From assembly GCA_947476825.1 (NCBI GenBank), contig CANJRV010000005.1:1-57496 (forward strand): a DNA stretch of 57,496 nucleotides. Direction: 5' to 3'. Each line of letters begins with the position of its first letter. Position 1 is the stretch's first letter. Below are positions 2,934 to 37,617 of this stretch, piece after piece. Position numbers and translations under genes: made by a program. The DNA is from Bacteroidota bacterium. Lineage in GTDB: Bacteria > Bacteroidota > Bacteroidia > Chitinophagales > Chitinophagaceae. The notes under the pieces were generated by a model, which saw only the letters and a list, made by a program, of their open reading frames with translations, was not told the DNA's origin and did not search any database.

Positions 2934-3764
2934 TTAATCCAGATAAAAAATTTCTTCTTGTTTAAACATCTTATTTTCTTGAATTGTCTTTTTTATTTGG
3001 GTAATAGAATGCGTTTCAAAAATTCCGTATAAGGTACTTCCACTTCCACTCATCGAGCAATAGATTCCACCTAATTGATATAATTCGCTTTTAATATTCT
3101 TTAAATCAGGGAATTCTTTAAAAATAGGAATTTCAAAATCGTTAATTAATTCATCTTTCCAAGTGGATATTGGCTGTTGGACTATTTCATGTGGAAGCTT
3201 TACAGGTTTACCGATGGTTAATTGTGAAAATGCCCATGCTGTTGAAATATGCACCGATGGCTTAATTAAAACAAAACTATAGGCGCTTAAGTCTAATTTT
3301 ATTTCTTCCAAAATCTCCCCTCTTCCAGAACCTCGACAAGGCTTATTCTTTAGAAAAAAAGGGCAATCGCTACCCAATTGAATGGCATATTGTTGTAGGT
3401 TATCATCTGTAAGTTCCAGTTTAAAATACTCATTTAACATCTTCAACATAAAGGTTGCATCAGAAGATCCACCACCTAAACCGGCTCCTGTAGGAATTTT
3501 CTTTAATAAATGGATATTTAAATATGGCAATTGCGGAAAATCTTTCTTCACCAAATCATAAGCTTTCACAATAATATTATCAGCTGGATTTACATCCATT
3601 GAAATACCTGAATTGCTCATTTGAAATGCGTGCGCAGGAATAAATTCAAGTGCATCTACTAACTGAATTGGATAGAATACAGTTTCTATATCATGAAATT
3701 TATCTTGGCGCTTCGCCATTATTTGCAATCCAAGATTTATTTTGCCATTTGGAAATTGAATCAT
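2934..3764 (-). CDS. ispE: 4-diphosphocytidyl-2-C-methyl-D-erythritol kinase
   Basis: GHMP kinase of the non-mevalonate (MEP) isoprenoid pathway; it phosphorylates the 2-hydroxyl of CDP-methylerythritol using ATP. The 276 residues match the family length. The glycine-rich ATP loop PTGAGLGGGSSDA is at residues 91-103. The likely catalytic pair is Lys8 (in NGKINLGL) and Asp133 (in GSDCPFF). A second glycine-rich motif, MSGSGSTLYG, near residue 240 is the usual third GHMP motif. It lies downstream of hpf, separated by that gene's terminator, so it is probably transcribed from its own promoter. Cytoplasmic. Confidence 0.95.
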   Translation of the reverse strand: MIQFPNGKINLGLQIMAKRQDKFHDIETVFYPIQLVDALEFIPAHAFQMSNSGISMDVNPADNIIVKAYDLVKKDFPQLPYLNIHLLKKIPTGAGLGGGSSDATFMLKMLNEYFKLELTDDNLQQYAIQLGSDCPFFLKNKPCRGSGRGEILEEIKLDLSAYSFVLIKPSVHISTAWAFSQLTIGKPVKLPHEIVQQPISTWKDELINDFEIPIFKEFPDLKNIKSELYQLGGIYCSMSGSGSTLYGIFETHSITQIKKTIQENKMFKQEEIFYLD

Positions 3765-3783
3765 ATTGGTAAAACTAAACCAA

Positions 3784-3816
3784 AAAAAATACCCTCCAAA
3801 ACGAAGGGTATTTTTT
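3784..3816 (-). terminator. Rho-independent terminator after hpf
   Basis: Perfect 12-bp stem (3784-3795 with 3805-3816; AAAAAATACCCT against AGGGTATTTTTT) around a 9-base loop, with a run of eight T's on the minus strand. It begins two bases after the hpf stop codon. Confidence 0.85.
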
Positions 3817-3817
3817 A

Positions 3818-4123
3818 TTAATGAGCTTCTACTTGTTTTTCTTTAAAGCCTTTTATTTGTGTGATTAAAGCTTTTAGTGCTAAATCAAAAGATTCTTCAA
3901 AACTTTTAGATTCGTGTTTTACAAAAAAAGTGTGCTTCGGAATATGCACTTTTATTTCGGCAATTTTGTCCTTGATTTGATGTATCACATTATCTACTTT
4001 TAGGTAAACTTCTACATCAACAATGTTATCATGATAGGTTTTTAATTTATCGACTTTTTCATTGACATGCGTTAAAAGTTTCTTGTCAGCATCAAAGCGT
4101 TGTGTGCGAATTTGAATATTCAT
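3818..4123 (-). CDS. hpf: Ribosome hibernation promoting factor, short HPF/RaiA type
   Basis: A 101-residue protein of the HPF/YfiA family, which binds the 30S decoding region and stabilises inactive ribosomes in slow growth. It starts MNIQIRTQRFDAD and shows the beta-alpha-beta-beta-beta-alpha layout, with VDVEVYLK in the middle and a helical C-terminal part rich in Lys (FDLALKALITQIKGFKEK). There is no long C-terminal dimerisation domain, so it is the short form. It is followed directly by a strong terminator and is monocistronic. Length and sequence fit the family well. Confidence 0.9.
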   Translation of the reverse strand: MNIQIRTQRFDADKKLLTHVNEKVDKLKTYHDNIVDVEVYLKVDNVIHQIKDKIAEIKVHIPKHTFFVKHESKSFEESFDLALKALITQIKGFKEKQVEAH

Positions 4124-5428: not shown

Positions 5429-6943
5429 ATGGAACAACAACTCACACTCGAACAAATACAAGATTTTAAAGGAAAATACCCAAAGCAATTATGGTATCTA
5501 TTTTTTAGTGAAATGTGGGAGCGATTTTGTTTCTATGGGATGCGGGGCATGCTTACTTTTTTTATGGTTCATCATTTAATGATGAATGAAAAAGTTGCCA
5601 ATTTGCAGTATGGTGCCACTCAAGCCTTTGTTTATGCATTTACCTTTCTTGGCGGTTTGTTTGCAGATAAAATATTAGGATTTCGAAAATCATTATTTTG
5701 GGGAGGATTACTCATGATCATCGGCAGTTGTATTTTGGCTTATGATCCTCTGAAATTTTTCTTTTTAGGCATTAGTTTCACAATAATCGGCACTGGCTTT
5801 TTCAAACCGAATATTTCTACGATGGTAGGAAGCTTATATAAAAGCGGCGATACACGAACTGATGCGGGATTCTCTTTATTCTATGCTGGAATTAATGTCG
5901 GTGCTCTAATTGGTGGTTATATTTGTATTGCCATAGGCAAGGGAGAAATGTTACAAAATACGATACCTACTCATCTTGCTTGGAATGTCGCCTTCGGATT
6001 AGCTGCAATAGTGATGACTATCAGTTTAGTTACTTTTATTTTTACCAAAAATTCATTAGGGCCGATTGGACTTTCACCAATGCATTCCATGGAGGATGGC
6101 AATAAAAAACAAATGATAGAATGGGCAGTTTATTTAGGTTCTTTAGCTATAATTCCATTAATCATGATTATGGTATCCAAAACGGAATATACAGATTACT
6201 TCATGTATACCATTGGACCATTAGTGCTTCTGTATTTATTTTATGAAATGACTAAATGCAATAAAGATGAACGAAATAAATTACTTGCGGCATTAGTATT
6301 CATCCTTTTTTCCATTCTATTTTGGGCGTTTTTTGAACAAAGTGGTGGCTCCCTAAGCTTATTCGCAGCTAATAATTTGGATAGTAATGTATTAGGAATC
6401 AAGTTAGATCCAAATGGCGTAAACAATTCTGCAAATTCATTATTTGTTATCATTTTCGCTGCTTTATTAGGCTTATTGTGGGTGTGGTTGAGCAAGCGAA
6501 AAATGGAACCAAACACGTTAGTTAAATTCGGATTGGGTTTTTTATTTTTAGCACTTGGTTTTTATATTTTTTATTATACAAGATTCTTTGCTGATGCGAA
6601 TGGAGTCACTTCACTTAACCTATTCACTTTCGGATGGTTTATCATTACCTTCGGAGAATTAAGTTTATCGCCTATAGGTTTATCCATCATGACCAAACTC
6701 TCTCCTACTCGTCTGAGTGGTGTGATGATGGGCATGTGGTTTTTGGCAAGCGCTTATGGACAATACGCTGCAGGCATATTAGGAGCAGGCATGGCAAGTG
6801 CCGATGAGCATGCATCCTTAATCACAAAATTAATGGCGTATACAGATGGCTATAAACAATTGGCAATCTATGCTTTAATAGCTGGTGTTGTATTAATCGC
6901 GATTTCACCTTTTGTCAAAAAGCTAATGGGAGAAGTTAAGTAG
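5429..6943 (+). CDS. Proton-dependent oligopeptide transporter (POT/PTR family)
   Basis: A 504-residue inner-membrane protein with about 12-14 hydrophobic segments. Residues 28-37 are EMWERFCFYG, the ExxER(F)xxYG motif of POT transporters that couples proton and peptide movement. It is followed by MRGMLTFFMV, and the second signature region is FKPNISTMVGSLY. It imports di- and tripeptides with protons in this family. The CDF exporter gene starts three bases after its stop, so the two are almost certainly co-transcribed, though no metabolic link is obvious. The length is normal for bacterial POT proteins. Confidence 0.92.
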   Translation: MEQQLTLEQIQDFKGKYPKQLWYLFFSEMWERFCFYGMRGMLTFFMVHHLMMNEKVANLQYGATQAFVYAFTFLGGLFADKILGFRKSLFWGGLLMIIGSCILAYDPLKFFFLGISFTIIGTGFFKPNISTMVGSLYKSGDTRTDAGFSLFYAGINVGALIGGYICIAIGKGEMLQNTIPTHLAWNVAFGLAAIVMTISLVTFIFTKNSLGPIGLSPMHSMEDGNKKQMIEWAVYLGSLAIIPLIMIMVSKTEYTDYFMYTIGPLVLLYLFYEMTKCNKDERNKLLAALVFILFSILFWAFFEQSGGSLSLFAANNLDSNVLGIKLDPNGVNNSANSLFVIIFAALLGLLWVWLSKRKMEPNTLVKFGLGFLFLALGFYIFYYTRFFADANGVTSLNLFTFGWFIITFGELSLSPIGLSIMTKLSPTRLSGVMMGMWFLASAYGQYAAGILGAGMASADEHASLITKLMAYTDGYKQLAIYALIAGVVLIAISPFVKKLMGEVK

Positions 6944-6946
6944 ACC

Positions 6947-7927
6947 ATGAAACAAAAAAGTATTCAAATCCAGAAACTACTTGTGATAGTTTCAATTGTT
7001 CTTTTTGTATGTAAAATTTTTGCCTGGTATATAACTGGTTCGGTTGCTATTCTCACGGATGCATTAGAAAGTACAGTGAATGTAGTAGCTGGTTTTATCG
7101 GATTATACAGTATTATTCTGTCGGCAAAACCTAAAGATAAAGAACATCCTTATGGGCATGGCAAAGTAGAATTTATTTCAGCAGCAGTAGAAGGTATATT
7201 AATCAGTACCGCAGGATTTATAATTATTTATGAAGCACTCATTAATTTAATTCATCCGCATACGCTACAAAAATTAAATATTGGCTTAATACTTATTGGT
7301 ATTACTGCCTGCATAAATTATGTTGTAGGCTTTTATTGTGTCAAAAAGGGTAATCAGGAAAATTCGCCAATATTAATTGCTGGTGGCTCACATCTAATAT
7401 CAGATACTTATTCAACTATAGGACTTATTGTCGGCTTGTTTATCGTATGGATTACTGGATACAAATGGCTAGATAGTGCTGTTGCCATGGTATTTGCCTT
7501 CATTATAATTTTCACAGGCTATAAAATTATTAGAAAATCTATTTCTGGCATCATGGATGAATCGGACGAAGCCATCATAGAAGAAATCATTCAATTATTA
7601 AATAAAAAAAGATTGACCAATTGGATTGATGTTCACAATATGCGAGTCATTAATTATGCCGGGTTCTATCATATAGATTGCCATTTAACCGTCCCCTATT
7701 ATATCAATGTATCCGAATCGCATGACATTTTGGATACTCTCACAGACATTTTAAAAAGCCATTTTAAAGATCGTGTCGAATTTTTTGTACATATAGATGG
7801 ATGCCTTCCTAAACAATGCAGTTTATGCAACGTACAACCTTGTAAATTTCGCCAAAAAGATTTTGAACATTCCATTACTTGGACAATAGATAATATTTTA
7901 TTAGATAAAAAGCATACGTTGGTGTGA
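6947..7927 (+). CDS. Cation diffusion facilitator family transporter with Cys-rich tail
   Basis: A 326-residue divalent-metal/proton antiporter (Zn, Fe or similar) with about six N-terminal membrane segments and a cytoplasmic C-terminal domain. The HxxxD metal site is H149/D153 (GGSHLISDT) and the conserved HPYGHGK loop is at about residues 67-73. The first site reads D38-A-L-E-S: where FieF has a second Asp four residues on, there is Ser42. After the C-terminal ferredoxin-like domain is a Cys cluster, C286, C291, C294 and C299, followed by FRQKDF. I recall such a tail from other Bacteroidota CDF proteins. Separated by three bases from the peptide symporter. Substrate metal cannot be read from sequence. 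Confidence 0.88.
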   Translation: MKQKSIQIQKLLVIVSIVLFVCKIFAWYITGSVAILTDALESTVNVVAGFIGLYSIILSAKPKDKEHPYGHGKVEFISAAVEGILISTAGFIIIYEALINLIHPHTLQKLNIGLILIGITACINYVVGFYCVKKGNQENSPILIAGGSHLISDTYSTIGLIVGLFIVWITGYKWLDSAVAMVFAFIIIFTGYKIIRKSISGIMDESDEAIIEEIIQLLNKKRLTNWIDVHNMRVINYAGFYHIDCHLTVPYYINVSESHDILDTLTDILKSHFKDRVEFFVHIDGCLPKQCSLCNVQPCKFRQKDFEHSITWTIDNILLDKKHTLV

Positions 7928-23721: not shown

Positions 23722-25908
23722 TTATTTATTCATAGTAGCGAGAAATTCTTCATTACTTTTTGTATTTCTCATTTGCGACAAAATAAAATTTATTGTTTCT
23801 TCTGGATTCATATCTCCAATATGCTTTCGAAGTATATATAATTTATTCATCGTATCTTTTTCCAACAATAAATCATCTCTTCTGGTAGAAGAAGCCACAA
23901 TGTCGATGGCAGGGTAAATCCGCTTATTTGCTAAACGCCTATCTAGTTGCAATTCCATGTTACCAGTACCTTTGAATTCTTCAAAAATGACTTCATCCAT
24001 TTTACTTCCTGTATCGATTAATGCCGTGGCTAGAATAGTTAATGAACCGCCGTTTTCTATTTTACGTGCAGCACCAAAAAACTGTTTCGGTTTTTGCATG
24101 GCATTGGCTTCCACCCCACCACTTAATACTTTACCTGATGAAGGCGCAACTGTATTATGGGCTCTGGCAAGACGAGTAATACTATCTAATAATATGACCA
24201 CATCATGTCCCACTTCTACCAATCGTTTTGCTTTTTGCAAAGCCAAGGCAGAAACTTTTACATGCTTTTCAGCAGGTTCATCAAATGTCGAAGAAATCAC
24301 TTCCGCTTTCACACTTCTTTCCATATCCGTCACCTCTTCTGGACGTTCATCTACTAACACGATCATCAAATAACATTCAGGATGATTGGCCGCAATTGCA
24401 TTAGCAACTTCTTTCAATAGCATCGTTTTACCGGTCTTGGGTTGCGCTACTATTAGTCCACGTTGCCCTTTTCCGATTGGCGAAAACAAATCCATAATTC
24501 GCGTACTATAATTCGTTGGTGTGGTACACAAATTAATTTTTTCAAATGGGAATAGCGGCGTTAAATAATCAAATGGAACTCTATCTCTAACTTCATCTGG
24601 CGACTTGTCATTGATGGTATTCACCTTTAATAATGCAAAATATTTTTCACCTTCTTTAGGCGGGCGAACTGTACCATATACAGTATCACCGGTTTTTAAT
24701 CCAAACAATTTTACTTGTGCATGAGAAACATAAACATCATCAGGTGAAGTCAAGTAATTGTAATCGCTCGAACGTAAAAAACCATAACCATCCGGCATCA
24801 TTTCTAAAACGCCTTCTGTTTCAATTTGTCCATCAAATTCCAGATTGAATTTGGGGGTCTTTTTAAATTTAAAATCCATTTCTGCAAAAGGCGCATTTTG
24901 CTCCTTCGGCTTAGCATTTAACTCTATTTCAGAAATTCCGATTGGTGTATTATTTTCAGGTCTTGGAGATTCCTGTCTTTGATTTTCTCTCTGCTTATTT
25001 TCTGATCTTTGAGAATCTTGTCTTTGATTTTCTCTTGGGTTATTTTCAGATCTTGGAGAATCTTGCCTTTGATTTTCTCTTGGATTATTTTCAGATCTTG
25101 GAGAATCCTGTTTTTGATTTTCTCTTGGATTATTTTCTGATCTTGGAGAATCTTGTTTTTGATTTTCTCTAGGGTTGTTATCTTGCCTAGGATGTGGAGT
25201 TCTAGGCGGATGTTGTTGTCGTTGATTTGGTTGATTAGGTTGAGCTACTTCTTTGACAGGGTTTGCGATTTCTGTTGGTGCTGTCGTAGAATCCAATGCT
25301 AGTTTAGTTTGTGGATTAATCACCTCTGTTTCACGCTTTTCAGCATGTGGTCTCGCTTCCGCTTTTGGATGTTGTTGCTTTGGATGATTTGGATCCTTCG
25401 GATTAGATTGTCGTGGTTCTTGTTGTTGCTTTTGCTGTGCTGGACGAACTTCTTTTTTAGGTTCAAGCTCAACCATTTTTGCCGTACTTTCTACAACAAT
25501 TGGCGTTTCTGCCTCAACCAATTTTTCCTCCGTTATTTTCTCTACCAATTTCTCTATACCCTTCTCAGCAGATTTGTTTGCTTTCGGCGCTGCTTTTTTT
25601 GTTTTTACAACAGGCTTTATATCTTTTTCTACTGCATCTTGTACAGGTTCTGCGGCAATTACAGCTTCCACTTTTGGTTCATCTATTGCTGCTGGAGTCG
25701 GCTTCTTGCTTGGTTTTTTTGTAACTTTTTTTTCCTTGGCAACTGAATCTCCGTTACTGACAATTGGGTTGATAGCTTGCGCATCCAATATTTTATAAAT
25801 TAGATCTTGTTTACTCAATTCCTTTGTTTCGGTGACGGCTAATTTTTTGGCTACATCTAGTAGTTCGGGAACGATCATATCGTTCAGTTGTATGATATCG
25901 AAATTCAT
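23722..25908 (-). CDS. rho: Transcription termination factor Rho with long repeat-bearing N-terminal insert
   Basis: RNA-dependent helicase that ends transcription. The 728 residues greatly exceed E. coli Rho (419). Residues 1-45 are the N-terminal Rho_N helical domain ([12 protein letters not shown]). Residues about 50-345 are a Lys/Pro/Gln/Asn-rich low-complexity insert containing five 15-residue tandem repeats (244-318). Residues 360-435 are the cold-shock-like RNA-binding domain ([16 protein letters not shown]). The ATPase core follows, with Walker A QPKTGKT at 489-495, [13 protein letters not shown] (Walker B region) and the R-loop/Q-loop region to the C-terminus. Bacteroidota Rho proteins are known to carry such inserts. 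Single gene, opposite strand to trmH. Confidence 0.96.
24955..25179 (-). repeat. Five tandem 45-bp repeats inside rho
   Basis: Codons 244-318 of rho are five in-frame 15-codon units with consensus NNPRENQ[K/R]QDSPRSE. The first three are almost identical at DNA level, while the fifth has diverged ([15 protein letters not shown]). Near-identical tandem units like these are prone to change copy number. Confidence 0.9.
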
Positions 25909-26885: not shown

Positions 26886-26963
26886 GGAGAGTATAGCTCA
26901 GTTGGTTAGAGCATCGGTTTGTGGTACCGAGGGTCGAGGGTTCGAGCCCCTTTATTCTCCCCA
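26886..26963 (+). tRNA. tRNA-His (anticodon GTG)
   Basis: A full cloverleaf. The acceptor stem GAGAGTA pairs with TATTCTC, with the tRNA-His-specific extra G-1 (26886) opposite C73. The D-arm is GCTCAGTTGGTTAGAGC. The anticodon stem TCGGT/ACCGA has loop TTGTGGT, reading GTG, and the T-arm carries TTCGAGC. The 3' CCA is encoded (26961-26963). It is followed by a strong terminator, so it is a single-tRNA transcript. Confidence 0.96.
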
Positions 26964-27000: not shown

Positions 27001-27046
27001 ATGCCCTGGCATGAGCTCTACTAGAATTAGTATAAGAGTCTAAGTG

Positions 27047-27126
27047 GCATTTTTTGAAAAAAAATTAATGCTACAGTCTAATGGTGTAGCGTTTTTTTTG
27101 AAAAAAAAAATTAATGCTACACCATT
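27047..27126. repeat. Tandem AT-rich hairpin units with an overlapping inverted repeat
   Basis: Two similar units (27047-27074 and 27089-27120), each GC[A/G] + T run + G + A run + TTAATGCTAC; each can fold on itself. In addition AATGGTGTAGC (27080-27090) is the inverse of GCTACACCATT (27116-27126), giving a nested palindrome. It directly abuts the dispersed element at 27126. Open frames through here on both strands reflect the palindrome, not genes. Confidence 0.6.
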
Positions 27127-27212
27127 GGGCGGCACACACGCTTTTCGTTCCAATCTTTTTGCTGCAGAGCCAGCAAAAAGGATTTCCACTGCAATCGTTG
27201 CCGCAATGCATC
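27126..27212 (+). repeat. Dispersed palindromic element, copy 1
   Basis: An 87-base block whose reverse complement recurs at 33388-33474. The 76-base core runs from GCGGCA (27129-27134) to its inverse TGCCGC (27199-27204), forming an outer stem. Inside is a hairpin of about 13 bp: AATCTTTTTGCTG (27152-27164) with CAGCAAAAAGGATT (27171-27184). By hand alignment the two cores differ at 9 of 76 positions with no gap. Confidence 0.8.
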
Positions 27213-27386
27213 TGCAAATGAATATCTTAACGAATCCTAAATGGTTTTCAAAACCTGATAAGATTTTCATACAACATCTTTAGTTATCCATCCTAATATT
27301 TCTTGCTCAACAAAACCAAAGCAGTTTTTTGAACCTATATTTACAGCCTCTAACTTTCTTCCCAAAAGGATTACCATATTACTACG

Positions 27387-28445
27387 ATGCAAATTTTTCA
27401 TTCTCACAAACCCTATATCATTGCTGGACCTTGTGGTGCAGAAGATGAACAGCAAATGTTATCGATTGCGAATTCATTGCGAGATATGCCTATACACATG
27501 ATACGTGCTGGCGTATGGAAGCCGCGATCTAAACCTGGATTTTTTGAAGGTAGAGGCGAACAAGCATTGCCATGGATGCAACAAGTAAAAGCGATATCAG
27601 GTAAGTCCGTTTGTATAGAAGTAGCAACCCGCGAACAAACAGAATTAGCATTGAAATACAATATGGATGCCGTATGGATTGGCGCTCGAACTACCGTGAA
27701 TCCTTTTATGGTGCAAGAAATTGCAGATGCGCTAAAAGGCTCTGGTATTGCGGTTTTGATTAAAAATCCAATTAATCCAGATGTTGAATTATGGAGCGGT
27801 GCTATTGAAAGAATGCAACAAGTTGGTATAGAAAATATAGCCGCTATACATCGTGGATTTTCTTCGTATGATACGACTACAAAATATAGAAATAAACCCA
27901 ATTGGGCGATACCCATCGAACTAAAAAGAAGATATAAAGACTTGCCTATTTTTTGTGATGCGAGTCATATTTGCGGCAACAGAACCCTTATTCCTTTTAT
28001 TGCGCAACGTGCATTAGATCTTGACTTCGATGGCTTGATGATTGAAACACATCCTACACCTGATGCAGCTTTGAGTGATGCGAAACAACAAATTACACCG
28101 AATGAATTAGCGATATTATTAGACCAATTAATTATCAGAAATGCATGTAAAGAAAGCACGCAAAATGATATAGAACAAGTACGTCAAATACTAGATACGA
28201 TGGATGCAGAAATTGTAGACATCATCGGTAAACGTATGGAATTGGTGGAGCGACTTGGGCTCATCAAAAAGGAAAATAACATGCCTATTTTTCAACAAGA
28301 ACGTTGGCGTGAGATTGTGGATTCACGGACTATCTGGGGCGAAAAAAATAATTTAGATGCCAGCTTCATTTTGAAATTATTTGAACTGATTCATGACCAA
28401 AGCATACAAACACAATTGGATTTTTTATCGAAGTCTGATTTATAA
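27387..28445 (+). CDS. Bifunctional DAHP synthase / chorismate mutase
   Basis: A 352-residue fusion for aromatic amino acid synthesis. Residues 1-250 are a type I-beta (KDO8P-synthase-like) DAHP synthase that condenses PEP and erythrose 4-phosphate: AGPCGAEDE (6-14), GVWKPRSKPGFFEGRG, IGARTTVNP, DASHICGNR and MIETHPTPDAALSD (metal and substrate sites). Residues about 262-352 are an AroQ-class chorismate mutase: VRQILDTMDAEIVDIIGKRM, LVERLGLIKKENN and Q-E-R-W. A fused mutase can act as the feedback-sensing part in such proteins. The family start at MQIFHSHKPYIIAGP is clear. It is followed 35 bases later by a methyltransferase gene with its own promoter-like box. Confidence 0.93.
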   Translation: MQIFHSHKPYIIAGPCGAEDEQQMLSIANSLRDMPIHMIRAGVWKPRSKPGFFEGRGEQALPWMQQVKAISGKSVCIEVATREQTELALKYNMDAVWIGARTTVNPFMVQEIADALKGSGIAVLIKNPINPDVELWSGAIERMQQVGIENIAAIHRGFSSYDTTTKYRNKPNWAIPIELKRRYKDLPIFCDASHICGNRTLIPFIAQRALDLDFDGLMIETHPTPDAALSDAKQQITPNELAILLDQLIIRNACKESTQNDIEQVRQILDTMDAEIVDIIGKRMELVERLGLIKKENNMPIFQQERWREIVDSRTIWGEKNNLDASFILKLFELIHDQSIQTQLDFLSKSDL

Positions 28446-30085: not shown

Positions 30086-33000
30086 TTATTTTACTTCAAC
30101 TTCATCCATAAATATGAAGGTATCATTTCCCCTACCCTCATGCCATTCAGGCATTTTACCAAATGACTTTGCAATTACTTTGATGTAGTTTACTTTTTGC
30201 GGCGTGATACTCGTTTGCCATTTTGAGATGCTTACATTTTCATCATGGTCTGGTTTGTTAGTTGGAATGGTTTTTACCAATGTCCAATGTGTAGAATCGT
30301 TGCTGGTATAAAATGAAACAGCAGATGGATAAAAAATCCATGAGTTTTGATCTTCTAAAAAATTAGCTCCTATTGATTTAATTTCGGTTGCTTTATCAAA
30401 TGCCATAATCACTTCAACATCTTGTCCTTGGTAGCCTTGCCAATCGCCAGCACGCCAATTAAGTTTACCATAAATACCATCCATCAAACCCTCTGCCCCG
30501 CCTGCACCATAGGATTTATTATAATCCGATTTTAAAATAATTTTCCGATTGGTAGGGAGTTTTGTAAAGGTAGCGGTTTGGATTGGGGATGTGAATATTT
30601 GCACCGTATTTACAAGGGTATCTCTTCTAAACTGTTGTATCGCATAATTCACTTTAAACTTATTATAAAAATGAATAGTGCTATTTTCTATAATTGTTAT
30701 TTGATTATTATCTAACCTTTTATAGGCCGAATTATTGATAGAATAATAAATTTGGGGGACAGTGTCAGTTGTATCCGTAGGAATGATAAAATCGAAATCC
30801 ATTGGCTCATTATTACCAAATACTAATTTTAAGCTGTCTTTAAAAATTCTTTTTGCGTTCAATAAAAATGGAGAATAGATAAAATCTTGTTTGAGAAGCT
30901 CATCATTGAAACTATATTCACTATTCGCAAATTCTCCTAAATCCGTTAAGATCGTTTCTAATTTCTTGCCTTCAATTTGAACACCAATTGAACGTTTGCT
31001 TTTTTCAAAATAAGCATGACCTCCAGGGCACATTTGATAAATACCCATTTGGTTCATAACATACCAAGCACTCATCTGTCCGCAATCTTCATTTCCAATT
31101 AAACCATCTGGTTCATTTTTGTAAAACTCATTCATGATTTTACTTACAATTTTTTCTGTCTTTTCAGGTTTAAAAATCCAATTGTACAAATAAGCCATTT
31201 GGTGACTTGGCTCATTGCCATGAGCATATTGACCTATTAATCCTGTAATATCTGCTTGTTCGCGTCCTTCTGTTTTTGTTTTAGCGGCAAATAAATCATC
31301 TAATTTTTTTTCAAATCCATCCTTGCCTCCTTGATGACTAATAAGTGAATTAATATCATGCGGCACATAAAAACTATACTGCCAACTATTCGCTTCTGTA
31401 AAATTATTGTCTACTGTATAAGGCGAAAATGGTTCGTACAAACAACCATTTTTTCGAGCGCGCATAAAGCCTGTTGTTGGGTCGTATACATTTATCCAGT
31501 TATGGCTACGATGAGTATAATATTCATAATCTTTTTTCTTGCCTAATGCATTTGCCATTTGCGCTATGCACCAATCGTCGTAGGCAAATTCCAATGTCTT
31601 GCTTACGCTCTCATGGGCATCATCCGAACGTACATAACCATAACGATTGTAGCTTTCCAATGCATCCGCATCGGCGCATCTAACTCGTGCCTTGTTAGAA
31701 AGTTTCAAATCATAAATTCCAAATCCCAAATCATCCCCTTTGGAATTTGCACTCCCCCCTTTGGAATTTGGAATTTCTCCCTTTGGAATTTTCACATAAT
31801 CAGAGGCTTGCGTTGCAATAGACTTCATCGCTTCAAAAGCTTTATTCACATCATAATCTCTAATGCCCTTATTGTAAGCATCCCACATTACACTTACCAC
31901 ATGATAGCCAATCATACAATTGGTTTCATTGCTACTAAGTTCCCATATAGGCAATCGTCCGCCTTGTTCATATTGTTTTATGAAAGTATTGATAAAATCA
32001 TTGGTTCGTTTTTTATCAAGAATCGCAAGTAATGGATGCAATGCACGATAAGTATCCCATAAACTAAAGACAGTATAGTAATTAAATTTCCCTTCGGTAT
32101 TGTGTATTTTATCATCTCGTCCTCTGTATCTTCCATCTATATCGCTATACAATGATGGATGTATCATGCAGTGGTAGAGGGCGGTGTAGAAGACGATGTG
32201 CCGATTAGCAGATGTGCCAATATGCTGATTATTTGTATTTTTTAATTGTTCAATTCCCGAATTATCTAATTGGCTAATCTGCTCATCTGCTAATTGGCTA
32301 ATTGTTATTTTAGAAAGCTCCTTCTCCCATTCTTGTTCGCATTTATTTTTATACAAATCAAAATCCCAATTTGGCATTTCGCTCAATAAATTCTTATGTG
32401 CTCCTTCTTCATCTACTCCACTAATGCCAACTTGAACCTGTAATTTGGAATTCGGATTTTGAGATTCAGAATTTAAACTGTTGTTTTTGGAATTTGGAAT
32501 TTGACCTTTGGAATTTTCTTTTTGGAATTTGATTAAACAGTGAAGAGATTTTTCTGTATTGACAAATGTAGTTTGGCTTGCAGATTTTACAGGTTCGTAA
32601 ATAATGCCTTCAATTTTTTTTGAAAATTTTATTTCATAAAATAATTTTTGATTGTTCGCCCAAGCTTTTGAAAAACGATAGCCACGAATGGTATAATCAT
32701 CTACCTTTTCCATTTTACTATCCAAAACTTTATCTCTGTGTTTCAAATCCAACACAACATACTGCTCGTCATTTTTTTGAAATGTATATTGATGCATGCC
32801 GCCATGCAAAGTCGCGGTTAGCTCTACATTTATTTTTGGATTGTCTAAAAACACTTGATAATATCCAGCATGTGCTTTCTCATTGACATGTAAAAAATGG
32901 GAAGCATATTGGTATTTATCGAGTTGCATTTCTTTGGTCACCGGCATCAACAAAATATCGCCGTAATCGCTGCAACCCGTGCCACTCAAGTGTGTGTGAC

Positions 33001-33250
33001 TAAAGCCATAAATCACAGAGTCGCTATAATGGTAACCACTACAACCATCCCATCCTTCTAAGCGTGTGTCCGGACCAACTTGACAAGCACCAAAAGGCAT
33101 GGTTGGACCAGGGAAAGTATGTCCATGACCACCAGTACCAATAAATGGATTAACGAGATTAAAAAGAGATTCCGTATTCGTCTTTTTTGTTTGTGCGAAA
33201 GCATTTTCTACACATAAAAAAAGTAAGCAATAGACAAGCATTTTTTTCAT
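30086..33250 (-). CDS. GH92 alpha-mannosidase with C-terminal F5/8 (discoidin-like) domain
   Basis: A 1054-residue exported glycosidase (signal peptide about 1-20, ending NAFAQ). GH92 enzymes are Ca-dependent exo-mannosidases acting on N-glycans and mannans. The N-terminal beta-sandwich (about 28-240) starts NLVNPFIGTGGHGHTFPG. The (alpha/alpha)6 barrel (about 285-790) has the acid Glu680 in AHGNEPSHQ and base Asp722 in NEDCGQMSAWY. Residues about 830-905 look like a chitobiase-type C-terminal domain, and about 907-1054 are an F5/8-type C carbohydrate-binding domain (NWRAGDWQGYQGQDVEV). Three low-complexity insertions (residues 243-271, 315-351, 486-520) interrupt it in frame. Likely a periplasmic or surface glycan-degrading enzyme; no SusCD pair nearby. 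Confidence 0.9.
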   Translation of the reverse strand: MKKMLVYCLLFLCVENAFAQTKKTNTESLFNLVNPFIGTGGHGHTFPGPTMPFGACQVGPDTRLEGWDGCSGYHYSDSVIYGFSHTHLSGTGCSDYGDILLMPVTKEMQLDKYQYASHFLHVNEKAHAGYYQVFLDNPKINVELTATLHGGMHQYTFQKNDEQYVVLDLKHRDKVLDSKMEKVDDYTIRGYRFSKAWANNQKLFYEIKFSKKIEGIIYEPVKSASQTTFVNTEKSLHCLIKFQKENSKGQIPNSKNNSLNSESQNPNSKLQVQVGISGVDEEGAHKNLLSEMPNWDFDLYKNKCEQEWEKELSKITISQLADEQISQLDNSGIEQLKNTNNQHIGTSANRHIVFYTALYHCMIHPSLYSDIDGRYRGRDDKIHNTEGKFNYYTVFSLWDTYRALHPLLAILDKKRTNDFINTFIKQYEQGGRLPIWELSSNETNCMIGYHVVSVMWDAYNKGIRDYDVNKAFEAMKSIATQASDYVKIPKGEIPNSKGGSANSKGDDLGFGIYDLKLSNKARVRCADADALESYNRYGYVRSDDAHESVSKTLEFAYDDWCIAQMANALGKKKDYEYYTHRSHNWINVYDPTTGFMRARKNGCLYEPFSPYTVDNNFTEANSWQYSFYVPHDINSLISHQGGKDGFEKKLDDLFAAKTKTEGREQADITGLIGQYAHGNEPSHQMAYLYNWIFKPEKTEKIVSKIMNEFYKNEPDGLIGNEDCGQMSAWYVMNQMGIYQMCPGGHAYFEKSKRSIGVQIEGKKLETILTDLGEFANSEYSFNDELLKQDFIYSPFLLNAKRIFKDSLKLVFGNNEPMDFDFIIPTDTTDTVPQIYYSINNSAYKRLDNNQITIIENSTIHFYNKFKVNYAIQQFRRDTLVNTVQIFTSPIQTATFTKLPTNRKIILKSDYNKSYGAGGAEGLMDGIYGKLNWRAGDWQGYQGQDVEVIMAFDKATEIKSIGANFLEDQNSWIFYPSAVSFYTSNDSTHWTLVKTIPTNKPDHDENVSISKWQTSITPQKVNYIKVIAKSFGKMPEWHEGRGNDTFIFMDEVEVK
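31691..31795 (-). repeat. Repeat-like insertion C in the GH92 gene
   Basis: Codons 486-520 (KIPKGEIPNSKGGSANSKG...). The DNA consists of near copies of CCCTTTGGAATTT, read AAATTCCAAAGGG in the coding strand. Canonical GH92 proteins run directly from this helix end to the substrate loop. Confidence 0.6.
32198..32308 (-). repeat. Repeat-like insertion B in the GH92 gene
   Basis: Codons 315-351 (ITISQLADEQISQLDNSG...) lie between KELSKI and FYTALYHC, which are only a few residues apart in ordinary GH92 proteins. The coding-strand DNA is made of ATTAGCCAATTAG / GCAGATGAGCAGATTAG units. Confidence 0.6.
32438..32524 (-). repeat. Repeat-like insertion A in the GH92 gene
   Basis: Codons 243-271 (QKENSKGQIPNSKNNSLNS...), made of AAATTCCAAA-type units, the same family as insertion C, placed in a loop of the N-terminal sandwich before LQVQVGIS. 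Confidence 0.6.
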
Positions 33251-33387
33251 TCAGTAAATATAAAAACAAATGGGACTTTGTTATATAATATTGCAATTCA
33301 AAAGGTCGTTCTTCTGCGTTTCGGTTGGTGGGACTCCAACCGATAGGAAGACAATTTTAAAATGTTATGCACGATTTTTTTTATGTC

Positions 33388-33474
33388 GATGCATTGCGGC
33401 AAAGATTGTAGCGAAAATCCTTTTTGTTGGCTCTGCAACAAAAAGATTGTAGCGAAAAGCGTGTCTGCCGCCCA
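33388..33474 (-). repeat. Dispersed palindromic element, copy 2
   Basis: Inverse-orientation copy of the block at 27126-27212. The core 33396-33471 is again exactly 76 bases, bounded by GCGGCA and TGCCGC. The inner hairpin reads CAACAAAAAGATT / AATCCTTTTTGTTG, and GATTGTAGCGAAAA occurs on each side of it (33405-33418 and 33445-33458). It lies upstream of the GH92 gene and downstream of map. Confidence 0.8.
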
Positions 33475-33525
33475 AATAATTTGTATTCATTTTATCGATT
33501 GCTGTCTACCAATCGAAAGCCTATT

Positions 33526-34326
33526 TTAATAACCTGAATATAAATTCGGATTCTCTTGCTCTGCTTTTTCTATTTCTGTAAAAGAAGAAAGTATATCTGC
33601 TTTGCCTTTACGCACTGCTATCGAATGTTCGTAATGCGCAGAAACTGAGCCATCTGAAGTTTTGATTGTCCATGCATCATCAGCACAATACACTTCTTTA
33701 GCACCCATATTAATCATTGGCTCGATAGCGATAACCAGGCCTTCTAACATTTTCATCCCATTGCCACGACGACCATAATTAGGCACTTCTGGATCTTCAT
33801 GTAATGACCTGCCCACGCCATGTCCAGTCAATTCACGCACCACACCATAACCATTTTTCTTTTCCGTATGCTCTTGTACAGCCCATGCGATATCCCCTAT
33901 TCTATTGCCAACTACTGCTTTTTGAATTCCTTTGTACAGCGATTCTTTCGTGACTCGCATGAGGCGTTGGATATCTTCAGGCACATCACCTATCGCAAAA
34001 GTATAGGCACTATCACCAACATAACCTTGCAAAGTAGCACCGGTATCGATACTAATTACATCACCTTCTTGCAATTCATCATTGGTCGGAAAACCATGCA
34101 CCACCGCATCATTTACGCTTATACAACAAGCGAATGGAAAATCGCGATACCCTTTAAACGCAGGAGTTGCGCCATGATCGCGGATAAAGGTTTCGGCAAT
34201 CGCATCCAACTGCATAGTAGTAATGCCTGGTTTAATCAATTTAGCCAATTCGGCAATAGTATTTGAAACTAATAAATTGCTTTTACGTATTAGTTCAATT
34301 TCGTCTTTTGTTTTGTAGTAAATCAA
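33526..34326 (-). CDS. map: Type I methionine aminopeptidase
   Basis: Removes initiator Met from nascent proteins. With a TTG start at 34324-34326 the protein begins (M)IYYKTKDEIELIRKSN, the usual MAP N-terminus, and has 266 residues. Metal ligands are D94 and D105 (SIDTGATLQGYVGDS), H169 (LTGHGVG), E202 (AIEPM) and E233 (YEHSIAV); His77 in VVHGFP is the substrate-side His. The open frame goes ten codons further to another TTG (34354-34356), but that one is part of the -7 box TACATTTG and cannot be translated from this promoter. Not linked to secY or ribosomal genes here. Confidence 0.95.
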   Translation of the reverse strand: MIYYKTKDEIELIRKSNLLVSNTIAELAKLIKPGITTMQLDAIAETFIRDHGATPAFKGYRDFPFACCISVNDAVVHGFPTNDELQEGDVISIDTGATLQGYVGDSAYTFAIGDVPEDIQRLMRVTKESLYKGIQKAVVGNRIGDIAWAVQEHTEKKNGYGVVRELTGHGVGRSLHEDPEVPNYGRRGNGMKMLEGLVIAIEPMINMGAKEVYCADDAWTIKTSDGSVSAHYEHSIAVRKGKADILSSFTEIEKAEQENPNLYSGY

Positions 34327-34353
34327 AATAGCTGTATTAAATTTTTTGCTCGG

Positions 34354-34361
34354 CAAATGTA
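34354..34361 (-). promoter_or_regulatory. -7 promoter box of map
   Basis: Minus-strand TACATTTG, exact consensus, 27 bases before the preferred TTG start; it contains the TTG that opens the longest frame. Confidence 0.6.
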
Positions 34362-35391: not shown

Positions 35392-35976
35392 ATGAAAGTA
35401 ATTACAATTGAAGGACAACTCAGAAGCGAATTTGGCAAAAAAGCATCCCGACATTTTCGTTCTGAGGGCAAAGTGCCTTGTGTAATTTATGGTGGGTCAG
35501 CAAACGTACATTTTACAACAACGCATAAAGAACTTAAAGGCGTTGTGTACACACCTGAATTTAACAAAGCGGAAATCACAGTTGATGGCAAGAAATACAC
35601 TTGCATCTTGAAAGATTTACAAATGCATAAAATTACCGATGAGGTATCTCATGTTGATTTTTTGGAATTGGTTGAAAACAAAAGATTAAATGCTAATGTG
35701 CCTTTAAAATTTGTTGGTCAATCTAGAGGAGTAAAAGAAGGTGGACGTTTTGTGGTAAACATGAGTACGATCAAAATTAGAACTACACCTGAAAATTTAA
35801 AAGAAGTTATTGAAGTGGATATTACTAATCTTGAAATTGGTAAAAATCTTCGTATTGAAGATATCCAAGTGGCAAATACAGAAATCATGCATAACAAGCG
35901 TATTCCAATTGCAGCTGTAGTAACAACGCGTGCGTTGAAACAAGAAGCAACAAATGCTAAAGATTCTAAAAAATAA
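35392..35976 (+). CDS. rplY: Ribosomal protein bL25, long (CTC) form
   Basis: 5S rRNA-binding protein of the 50S subunit. The 194 residues comprise the L25 domain (about 1-90: EGQLRSEFGKKASRHFRSEGKVPCVIYGG) and the C-terminal TL5/CTC beta domain (about 95-185: PLKFVGQSRGVKEGGRF, then IEVDITNLEIGKNLRIEDI). The tail is Lys-rich. It ends at a strong terminator and has its own promoter. The peptidyl-tRNA hydrolase gene that often follows rplY in this phylum is absent. Confidence 0.95.
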   Translation: MKVITIEGQLRSEFGKKASRHFRSEGKVPCVIYGGSANVHFTTTHKELKGVVYTPEFNKAEITVDGKKYTCILKDLQMHKITDEVSHVDFLELVENKRLNANVPLKFVGQSRGVKEGGRFVVNMSTIKIRTTPENLKEVIEVDITNLEIGKNLRIEDIQVANTEIMHNKRIPIAAVVTTRALKQEATNAKDSKK

Positions 35977-35993
35977 TATTTTAATTCATTATC

Positions 35994-36025
35994 AAAAAAA
36001 GCGAGGCTATTGTCTCGCTTTTTTT
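35994..36025 (+). terminator. Rho-independent terminator after rplY
   Basis: Stem AAAAAAAGCGAG (35994-36005) with CTCGCTTTTTTT (36014-36025), 8-base loop, T run. Directly downstream of rplY. Confidence 0.85.
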
Positions 36026-36174
36026 ATAGGATAAAAACTCCCTTTGATTACATGGCTATACGCAACTGGATTTTATCAATAAATGAATCTAAATCCGGTT
36101 TCAAATTACAAATGGAAGCCCTGAGTAGCTCAAAAAAAGTTTTTTAAAAAAAATATAAATATTAGTTTTGGTTC

Positions 36175-37617
36175 ATGAATAAAGCATCCTTTTTACTAAA
36201 AATTTCCCTACTGCTATTTTGTTTCTTTGCATACCAAATGTCATACGGACTTGGCAAAACCAATGGATATAAAATTGAGGTACATGTGAGCAATTGCCAA
36301 GATACTACAGTACAACTTTGCAATTATTATGGCAAAGCAGGCATGGTAAATATAGTAAGTACCAAGACCATCAAAAAGTCAACTGATGTCACATTCACTT
36401 TTGAAAATGACACTGCCATTGTCGGTGGTATTTACTTAATTATGTTTAAAAATAAACGTTCCCAATTTGAATTTATATTGAATAATGGTGCTCATCTACA
36501 ATTGAATTATAATTTTGATAAACCAGTTGAAAGTGCATCCATTATTGGCTCAGAAGAGAGTAAGCAATATCTTGCCTACTTTCAATTTTTGACTCCATTC
36601 AATGACAGGCATATGCTAATTCAAAAGGAAATGGCACTCGCTAAAACAAAAAAAGATTCGACAATTTGTAACGACAAAATAAAAGGATTAAGTGATGAAA
36701 TAAGACAATATAGAAAGATGTGCATTAAAAAATTCCCTTCTACTTTTTTAGCAACTTATTTTACTGCATTAGAATTCACCGACATTCCGAAAAAAATAGA
36801 AAATAACAATGAAGAAAGAGATGAATTTATCAAAAAACACATTTGGGATTTTTATGATTTTACAGATGACAGACTAGCCTTTACACCCATTAATGAGGGT
36901 AAGCTAGAAACTTATTTATCCTTGACAACGCCGGTTGCGGATAGCATAAATCTTGCCATGGATTTGCTATTAAAAAAAATGGAAAAATCAAAAGAATTAT
37001 ACAAATTCACGTTGGATTGGATGTTGAGAGCGCAAGAAAATGCGAAGGTTTTATTTGCTGATGATTGCTTCATTTATTTGGTAGAAAATTATTATTTGAA
37101 AGGAAAAGCAACTTGGGTGACAGACAGTTTCCTCAACAGTTATAAAGCTAAAATCAGTAATTTAGCAACGAATGTAATAGGCGTGAAAGCCCCTGAAATT
37201 AATATCTTTGATATTAAAGATCAACCGACCACCTTACAAAGTATTTATACAAAACATGATTATACGGCCATTATATTTTGGTCGCCTACTTGCAGTCATT
37301 GCAAAGAAGAGATTCCGAAATTAGACAGTGCATTTGCTAGTTTACACCGCGACATTGTCATTGTTGGTATTGATGCTTTTAGAGAAACAGAAGAGTGGCG
37401 CAAGCTAGTAAATGAAAGTCATTACTTAAATACTTGGGTTCATTTATACGACGCAAAACAGACCAGCGATTATCGAAAAAAATATGCGATATACAGTTCT
37501 CCAATTGTTTATTTGGTAGACAGAAATGGCATTATTGTTGGCAAGAGATTCGACCACAGCAACTTAAAAACGCTCTTCGATTTTTTAGATAAGGAAAAGA
37601 ATAAAAACAAAAAATAA
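36175..37617 (+). CDS. TlpA-like periplasmic thioredoxin with DUF4369-type N-terminal domain
   Basis: A 480-residue exported protein. The signal segment spans about 5-25; a beta-rich N-terminal domain (about 30-130) resembles DUF4369. A helical middle (about 135-330) matches the DUF5106 type, and a C-terminal thioredoxin fold (about 338-480) carries a CxxC at C373/C376 in SPTCSHCKEEIP. The cis-Pro loop is YSSPIVYLVDRNG. Such proteins reduce or rearrange disulfides in the periplasm; substrates are unknown. The stop is one base from the stop of the convergent LTA-synthase-like gene. Confidence 0.85.
   Translation: MNKASFLLKISLLLFCFFAYQMSYGLGKTNGYKIEVHVSNCQDTTVQLCNYYGKAGMVNIVSTKTIKKSTDVTFTFENDTAIVGGIYLIMFKNKRSQFEFILNNGAHLQLNYNFDKPVESASIIGSEESKQYLAYFQFLTPFNDRHMLIQKEMALAKTKKDSTICNDKIKGLSDEIRQYRKMCIKKFPSTFLATYFTALEFTDIPKKIENNNEERDEFIKKHIWDFYDFTDDRLAFTPINEGKLETYLSLTTPVADSINLAMDLLLKKMEKSKELYKFTLDWMLRAQENAKVLFADDCFIYLVENYYLKGKATWVTDSFLNSYKAKISNLATNVIGVKAPEINIFDIKDQPTTLQSIYTKHDYTAIIFWSPTCSHCKEEIPKLDSAFASLHRDIVIVGIDAFRETEEWRKLVNESHYLNTWVHLYDAKQTSDYRKKYAIYSSPIVYLVDRNGIIVGKRFDHSNLKTLFDFLDKEKNKNKK

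Follow-up and report, generated by a model that had tools for sequence, protein, structure and literature searches.

Flavo-1 hairpins as the probable conserved middle of a MITE in two related Bacteroidota genomes

Two Flavo-1 copies and their surroundings

The stretch of DNA analyzed here, called the window throughout, is 57,496 nucleotides long and belongs to a genome of 3.30 Mb in 184 contigs (G000), which we compared with the genome of a sister species (G149). An ORF at 23722-25908 presumably codes for the transcription terminator Rho and has a long N-terminal extension of near-identical repeats of 15 protein letters each. Farther along, a tRNA (26887-26960) and an ORF starting at 27387 enclose the first of two palindromic blocks, and the second lies between the ORFs at 30086-33250 and 33526-34356. 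These coordinates agree with the original prediction, which had placed both blocks in intergenic DNA and described one as the reverse complement of the other. Direct comparison bears this out, as the reverse complement of 27126-27212 aligns with 33388-33474 over 87 bases, without gaps and with nine mismatches, and the 76-base cores (GCGGCA to TGCCGC) likewise differ at nine positions.

Analysis with cmscan assigned both copies to the Rfam family RF01705 (Flavo-1), with E values of 4e-10 and 1.8e-9 and matches that span positions 1 to 76 of the 76 in the model. As both scores exceed the gathering cut-off (Table 1), a chance resemblance between the two blocks is excluded. The only other matches in the window at the gathering threshold were two tRNAs.

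The inverted ends described below for other copies are not recognizable at either window copy, and the left arms in Table 1 are placed by the left inverted end found 48 to 51 bp from the core in those copies. No 8-bp duplication is left at the weak right-end remnant of copy 1. The same side of copy 1 is adjoined by a small palindromic repeat, GTAGCATTAATTTTTTTTCAAAAAATACGCTAC (27045-27126). A simple string test on 68 type A copies detected the GTAGC unit at 11, including a doubtful case. Repeats of the GTAGCATTAATTTTTTTTCAAAAAATACGCTAC type lie within 80 bp of Flavo-1 in 13 of 17 pattern hits in the G000 DNA examined and in 13 of 30 in that of G149, counts in which a palindromic copy can appear once per strand. 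The G149 locus orthologous to copy 1 is about 45 bp shorter, a difference that may reflect the gain or loss of one unit.

Table 1. Features at the two Flavo-1 loci of the window
Feature	Position	Strand	Basis
Flavo-1 core, copy 1	27127..27204	-	cmscan 58.2 bits (gathering 42), Rfam match 27130-27206; nhmmer
Probable left arm of MITE, copy 1, expected place	27205..27254	-	Analogy with other copies; inverted end unrecognizable
Separate second palindromic repeat, GTAGC...GCTAC hairpin, directly adjacent to copy 1 at its 3' end	27080..27126	.	Sequence
Putative additional imperfect GTAGC-type hairpin, adjoining the first	27045..27075	.	Sequence
Weak remnant of right inverted end, copy 1 (AGCTCTACTAGAATTAGTATAAGAG)	27015..27039	+	Best flank match to consensus end
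Flavo-1 core, copy 2	33396..33473	+	cmscan 55.8 bits (gathering 42), Rfam match 33394-33470; nhmmer
Probable left arm, copy 2, expected place	33346..33395	+	Inverted end unrecognizable
Right arm, copy 2 (AAATAATTTGTATTCATTTTATCGAT), partial match to AAATAATTTTCATTACATTTTTAGT	33474..33503	+	Sequence compared with consensus

Copy number, distribution and fold of the Flavo-1 family

Scoring 150 of 955 first-look candidates in G000 gave 148 matches to RF01705 at an E value of at most 0.001, of which 143 exceed the cut-off. This count seems nearly complete, and a profile search of 470 kb, in stretches chosen around known copies, returned no strong copy outside the known places. The two copies in 57 kb are close to the expected density (2.6). 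For the order, the search scored up to 29 candidates in each genome and found a match in 64 of 149 (G000 included), in 45 of them over the cut-off. All 13 other genomes of the genus that were searched have matches (1 to 138 each), 12 of them over the cut-off. The refuting outcome named in the original prediction, two copies only and none in related genomes, did not arise. An exact-pattern scan of named genomes yielded at least 80 loci, and among those listed the motif occurs in Flavobacterium, Chryseobacterium, Kaistella, Epilithonimonas, Pedobacter and others, as well as in Spirochaetota. The GATTGTAGCG-type core thus recurs in other Bacteroidota, so that of the suggested REP-like family the dispersed family stands, while the REP/RAYT link does not (see below).

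The family is not uniform. A second subtype (GCGTTAGGGATAGAACGG...CCCGACCCGAAGGGGAACGC), closer to the form of other Bacteroidota, was seen at L047:6290, L077:3332, L073:2004, L076:2006, L048:5011 and L049:10374, and several of these copies then carry AGTAGTTAGTATTGAG-like repeats. Some type A copies (L039:5813, L046:2076, L063:2067 and L053:1992) have an extra hairpin in the 3' arm, like GGATCCTGACATTTATCGTCAGGACGTG.

All 16 spirochaete loci tested match RF01705 over the cut-off (cmscan, given 19 of the at least 80 named loci). Fifteen are contigs of metagenome bins and one belongs to the complete genome of Treponema putidum OMZ 758. One further match is on L279, a contig assigned to a Saccharibacteria bin; as bins can be mixed, the safest basis for Flavo-1 in other phyla is T. 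putidum together with the number of spirochaete contigs.

The core folds into a hairpin of 26 standard pairs, broken by an A.G mismatch and two symmetric G-N-A/G-N-A loops. The palindrome of the original prediction is confirmed, but its inner hairpin of about 13 bp gives way to one long, nearly continuous hairpin. Single-sequence folding barely beats shuffled sequences (z of -1.0 for copy 2 as RNA and -2.0 for copy 1 as DNA), so covariation, and not folding energy, serves as the structural evidence. It was measured in 46 G000 cores, part of a set of 66 distinct ungapped 78-nt cores of at least 72 bits. In these 46, 98.7% of the cells are paired and 55 cells carry double changes, compared with 20.8 in shuffles, none of 500 of which reached that number. 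The double changes fall at six pairs, and sliding the structure along the alignment abolishes the signal. Across all 66 distinct cores, five G.A/A.G positions never vary, unlike the bases between them. At 25 of the 26 pairs, the wobble pairs are eight G.T and no A.C, which points weakly to folding of the Flavo-1 strand; pair 6-71, with 11 A.C, runs counter to this. A T-run precedes the apical hairpin and does not follow it, which leaves no terminator reading on the Flavo-1 strand.

One alternative, in line with the Rfam type of RF01705 (sRNA), is an ordinary family of small RNA genes acting in trans or of RNA elements regulating in cis. The covariation, the conserved noncanonical pairs and the lean of the wobble pairs to one strand all suit this reading, which we nevertheless consider unlikely, as there are about 150 similar copies and many have mobile-element ends. 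Nor does the gene context help it. With genes called crudely, copies outside ORFs number 74 of 79 in G000, 55 of 58 in G149 and 47 of 63 among named genomes, and they occupy convergent, divergent and same-direction gaps in proportions near those of all gaps. Within same-direction gaps, copies opposite to their genes outnumber those in the same orientation by 30 to 12 in G000 (P = 0.008) and by 22 to 11 in G149 (P = 0.08), and in other genomes the ratio is 13 to 15, so that orientation to genes is inconsistent. No Pfam family occurred in more than two of the 117 neighboring ORFs scanned (133 neighbors in all). In Flavobacterium psychrophilum, the accessible part of a transcriptome study describes hits both sense and antisense, many of them outside transcripts, and obtained no real functional clue from the Flavo-1 sites (PMC9723704).

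Inverted ends, target duplication and the search for a mover

Many copies extend beyond the Rfam model, with ACTAAAAATGTAATGA... upstream and ...TTTTCATTACATTTTTAGT downstream forming inverted ends, mostly 48 to 51 bp from the core on the left and 30 to 32 bp on the right. We analyzed the 153 copies of G000 and G149 that had enough flank. A first, unfiltered fit held many misplaced ends, and the analysis of target duplication uses only the 40 copies that passed a filter for the quality of their ends and for spacing on the left. Their consensus terminal inverted repeats are GGCTAAACTAAAAATGTAATGA (left) and GGCTATACTAAAAATGTAATGA (right); the remaining 113, both window copies among them, fail the filter. 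In the 40, the basic units measure 158 to 162 bp and others about 200 to 240 bp, several with GTAGC hairpins beside the core.

The 8-bp flanks of these 40 copies are 53.7% identical, compared with 36.1% when re-paired (z = 7.3, somewhat inflated in this pooled set by sites common by descent), and other duplication lengths from 3 to 12 bp reach a z of at most 2.7. Eleven of the 40 agree at six or more of the eight positions, with exact duplications at L225:2941 and L042:2003. In G000 by itself (25 copies) the 8-bp signal has a z of 5.9 and other lengths 1.4 or less; in G149 (15 copies) it is weak, at 2.7, with lengths of 5 and 7 reaching 2.5. The ends and the 8-bp duplication are thus properties of the set of 40 of the 153 copies. 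One insertion differs between the species: at L130:8319, G149 reads CATTTAAT-element-CATTTAGT, and the G000 site (L205) has a single CATTTAGT. The unit is short, noncoding and multicopy, with terminal inverted repeats and a target duplication of fixed length, as expected of a MITE.

A rather different origin had been proposed for these repeats, namely a REP- or REPIN-type element mobilized by a RAYT (TnpA_REP) single-strand transposase. Flavo-1 is palindromic, mostly intergenic and present in about 150 copies, some with GTAG inside the motif. G000 has eight Y1_Tnp matches, two of them TnpA-like, one broken and five RAYT-like without internal stops; all three of the five that were tested match NCBIfam NF047646 (REP_Tyr_transpos), and Flavo-1 lies at most 200 bp from two of the five. 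Atypical flanking structures have also been reported for the TnpA_REP subclass 2.6 of Bacteroidetes, in the part of that work available (PMC6006769). However, all five RAYT-like genes (L034, L035, L036, L037 and L038, on contigs C19, C58, C77, C2 and C93) are flanked, as read by eye, by palindromes other than Flavo-1 (for C77 with only 76 bp downstream), and the two nearby Flavo-1 copies fall outside these palindromes. No RAYT-like ORF was found in the 80 Flavo-1 loci of other genomes scanned (E value of 1e-5). REP palindromes of 20 to 40 bp have a terminal GTAG (or CGTC) tag on one side, whereas in Flavo-1 GTAG lies within the arms, and in some copies only. Inverted ends and an 8-bp duplication are, moreover, at odds with single-strand transposition, and we know of no REP described with either inverted ends or a target duplication. 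We therefore rejected the REP/RAYT origin, which we regard as very improbable. The repeats first noticed are real and belong to something larger than was noted, but their interpretation as RAYT-linked REPs fails. The palindromes beside the five RAYT-like genes are of four kinds by eye, some in tandem arrays (C58).

The MITE itself is restricted in range. Its end motif has 25 hits in G000 and 33 in G149 (two in each for a reversed control), 0 to 4 in 12 other genomes of the genus (control, 0 to 2) and 0 to 5 in five of the order (control, 0 to 5). It is near background even in the Flavo-1-rich genomes G150 (74 Flavo-1 copies) and G154 (44). As the motif is near background in the other genomes searched, the MITE accounts for Flavo-1 in these two genomes only. 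We infer that the MITE is local and fairly young and that Flavo-1 is old and widespread. A copy-by-copy test for terminal inverted repeats gave no clear excess in other lineages (mean of 8.20 for named loci compared with 7.42 shuffled), by a method that barely detects the ends even in the species pair (8.58 compared with 7.92), so that the missing excess carries no weight.

A search of 2.8 Mb, with about 38% of G000 and 44% of G149 covered, returned no autonomous element with the MITE ends; its sensitivity was low, with only 17 facing end pairs, and the sole pair 2.6 kb apart enclosed ordinary genes. The two genomes were also searched for the transposase families IS1595, ISL3 and DDE_Tnp_1. 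An IS1595-family transposase of G149 (L183:12727-13650, contig C11), with an open frame of 308 codons, was rejected because its ends (TGATTCTGTC..TGCCACAA) are unrelated to those of the MITE. No MITE end within four substitutions was found near the DDE_Tnp_1 copy examined. The end comparison covered these two copies; the further family matches are DDE_Tnp_1 copies on C130 (G000), C28 and C68 (G149), a second IS1595 place on C44 and a weak ISL3 match on C76.

In two spirochaete bins, some Flavo-1 copies adjoin other ends, GGGGGAAGTCTTCCACTGTCAACAAGTTAAG, the inner 18 bases of which have seven hits with up to four substitutions in 5 of the 16 loci, not all beside Flavo-1. At L308, such ends bracket one Flavo-1 copy within about 190 bp (about 3671-3861), with no target duplication seen, and an IS4-like remnant at 6838-7255 begins with the same end as the Flavo-1 element. 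The 75-residue ORF of the remnant matches NCBIfam IS4 with an E value of 7.5e-7 and 28.6 bits, far under the curated cut-off of 115, and has no match to a Pfam transposase. Five of the six ends compared align to the remnant end better than 200 shuffles, the exception being L264. These observations suggest, short of proof, that Flavo-1 may have a second, unrelated vehicle there. As the hairpin occurs where the MITE ends are rare, it appears to be a module of several mobile elements and not the REP of a RAYT.

Retention of the hairpin and comparison with known systems

G149 is 92% identical to G000 over the window locus. Starting from 93 copies in G000, 36 have their locus in the G149 DNA examined, 32 of which keep Flavo-1 and 4 do not; starting from 61 in G149, 35 have their locus in G000, with 31 kept and 4 not. 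Among the eight orthologous sites that have no element in one of the species (four each way), L130/L205 is the one clean insertion. L071 resembles an internal deletion, L069 has a diverged hairpin in place, and the rest aligned uncleanly across the gap, L168 being compared in part. Both window copies are common to G149, with 0 differences in 78 positions of the core for copy 1 and 1 in 78 for copy 2, and therefore predate the split of the two species. Elsewhere in the window, at 35965-36193, Flavo-1 is absent and the orthologous stretch of G149 (L176) is longer and contains an additional Flavo-1 with ends of the GGCTAAACTAAAAATG type as well as other, nested repeats; the gap between the two does not align cleanly.

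At sites that both species retain, the core diverges less than its surroundings. In 27 of the 32 G000-side ortholog pairs, kept after dropping cores with fewer than 70 aligned bases, the core differs at 63 of 2,104 positions (3.0%), compared with 152 of 1,343 (11.3%) in the 50 bp before it and 78 of 773 (10.1%) in the 30 bp after it; the outer flanks of the same pairs differ by 8.3% and 6.7%. The flanks diverge more than the core in 19 pairs and less in 1, with 7 ties (sign test, P = 4e-5). In the 17 ungapped 78-nt pairs, changes affect 24 of 272 free positions, 17 of 884 paired positions and none of 170 G.A positions (Fisher test for free positions against the rest, P = 6e-8). The G.A class was named after its invariance had been seen in cores that include these, so its zero is partly expected, and the contrast between free and paired positions is unaffected. 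Since the core evolves more slowly than its flanks and changes avoid paired and G.A positions, the hairpin itself appears to be selected, even though, of the 14 pairs with a change between orthologs, 10 do not pair in one of the two species, which counts against it.

The conservation could be only apparent if the element were a neutral MITE whose cores are homogenized by gene conversion or enriched for good cores by the detection. Copies were indeed detected with the core profile, and at one ortholog pair (L074) the loop is swapped for a variant present elsewhere, a site where gene conversion keeps some standing. But detection reaches down to 30 bits and typical type A cores score about 60 to 90. 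Orthologs differ on average at 2.4 positions per 78 and paralogs at 11.0, the opposite of what homogenization would give. Free positions change at near the flank rate (8.8%, compared with 10 to 11%), with the constraint falling on paired and G.A positions. Taking these together, we give little credence to neutrality.

We consider it likely, then, that Flavo-1 in G000 and G149 is the conserved middle of a nonautonomous MITE, with a hairpin that is kept after insertion. In the mechanism that we propose, a DDE-type unit of about 160 bp, longer where hairpins have been added and bounded by the inverted ends GGCTATACTAAAAATGTAATGA, would be moved in trans by a cut-and-paste transposase, and an AT-rich target of 8 bp would be duplicated on its insertion. 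The remaining type A copies would be the same element with decayed ends, including both window copies, which we assign to the MITE because they share the core and, in copy 2, part of the right arm. Once the element has inserted, its ends would decay about as fast as the DNA around them changes, and the 78-nt hairpin would be retained. The object of selection is most likely a folded single strand, either RNA or exposed single-stranded DNA, which would be the Flavo-1 strand and would bind a conserved protein. More tentatively, and with the balance leaning somewhat against it, Flavo-1 could be a self-contained functional hairpin that was captured independently into MITEs by unrelated ISs in Bacteroidota and Spirochaetota and was then kept by selection where it landed; if so, it would be a ready-made hairpin module, widely present and distributed by various transposons.

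Flavo-1 was already known as a candidate RNA since 2010, without a stated function. Travel as a MITE would explain its copy number, scatter and strand indifference in the species pair. Two questions can now be separated, how Flavo-1 spreads (a matter of the transposon) and why the hairpin is retained, which is testable, and the five invariant noncanonical G.A positions offer a handle for finding a binding partner. There is also a caution, in that abundant RNA families known only as motifs can be mobile DNA. The accessible text of PMC2864571, PMC9723704 and PMC9029176 links neither Flavo-1 nor RF01705 to a transposon, within a literature coverage that leaves aside preprints and most subscription papers.

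Three known systems are close enough for comparison, each as described in the parts of the sources available. In the table of Weinberg et al. (2010), Flavo-1 is probably an RNA, probably not cis-regulatory and found in Bacteroidetes only (PMC2864571). Both window copies fit that family, exceeding its gathering score over the whole model, but many copies here lie inside a probable MITE and the family is present in Spirochaetota also. With REP/REPIN-RAYT systems, subclass 2.6 included (PMC6006769, PMC3733652), Flavo-1 shares dispersed, mostly intergenic palindromes and the co-occurrence of RAYT-like genes; it differs in that it does not flank the RAYT-like genes seen and in its inverted ends and 8-bp duplication. 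A further comparison is with bacterial MITEs such as MITECca01 of Cardinium, which is 240 bp long, has 169 copies and stems from an IS982-family element (PMC9769881). Both are short and mostly intergenic, have no ORF, carry inverted ends and reach a similar copy number (148 matches in G000). Unlike MITECca01, the Flavo-1 MITE yielded no parent IS in the DNA searched, and its interior is conserved across bacteria and apparently selected, while its ends decay.
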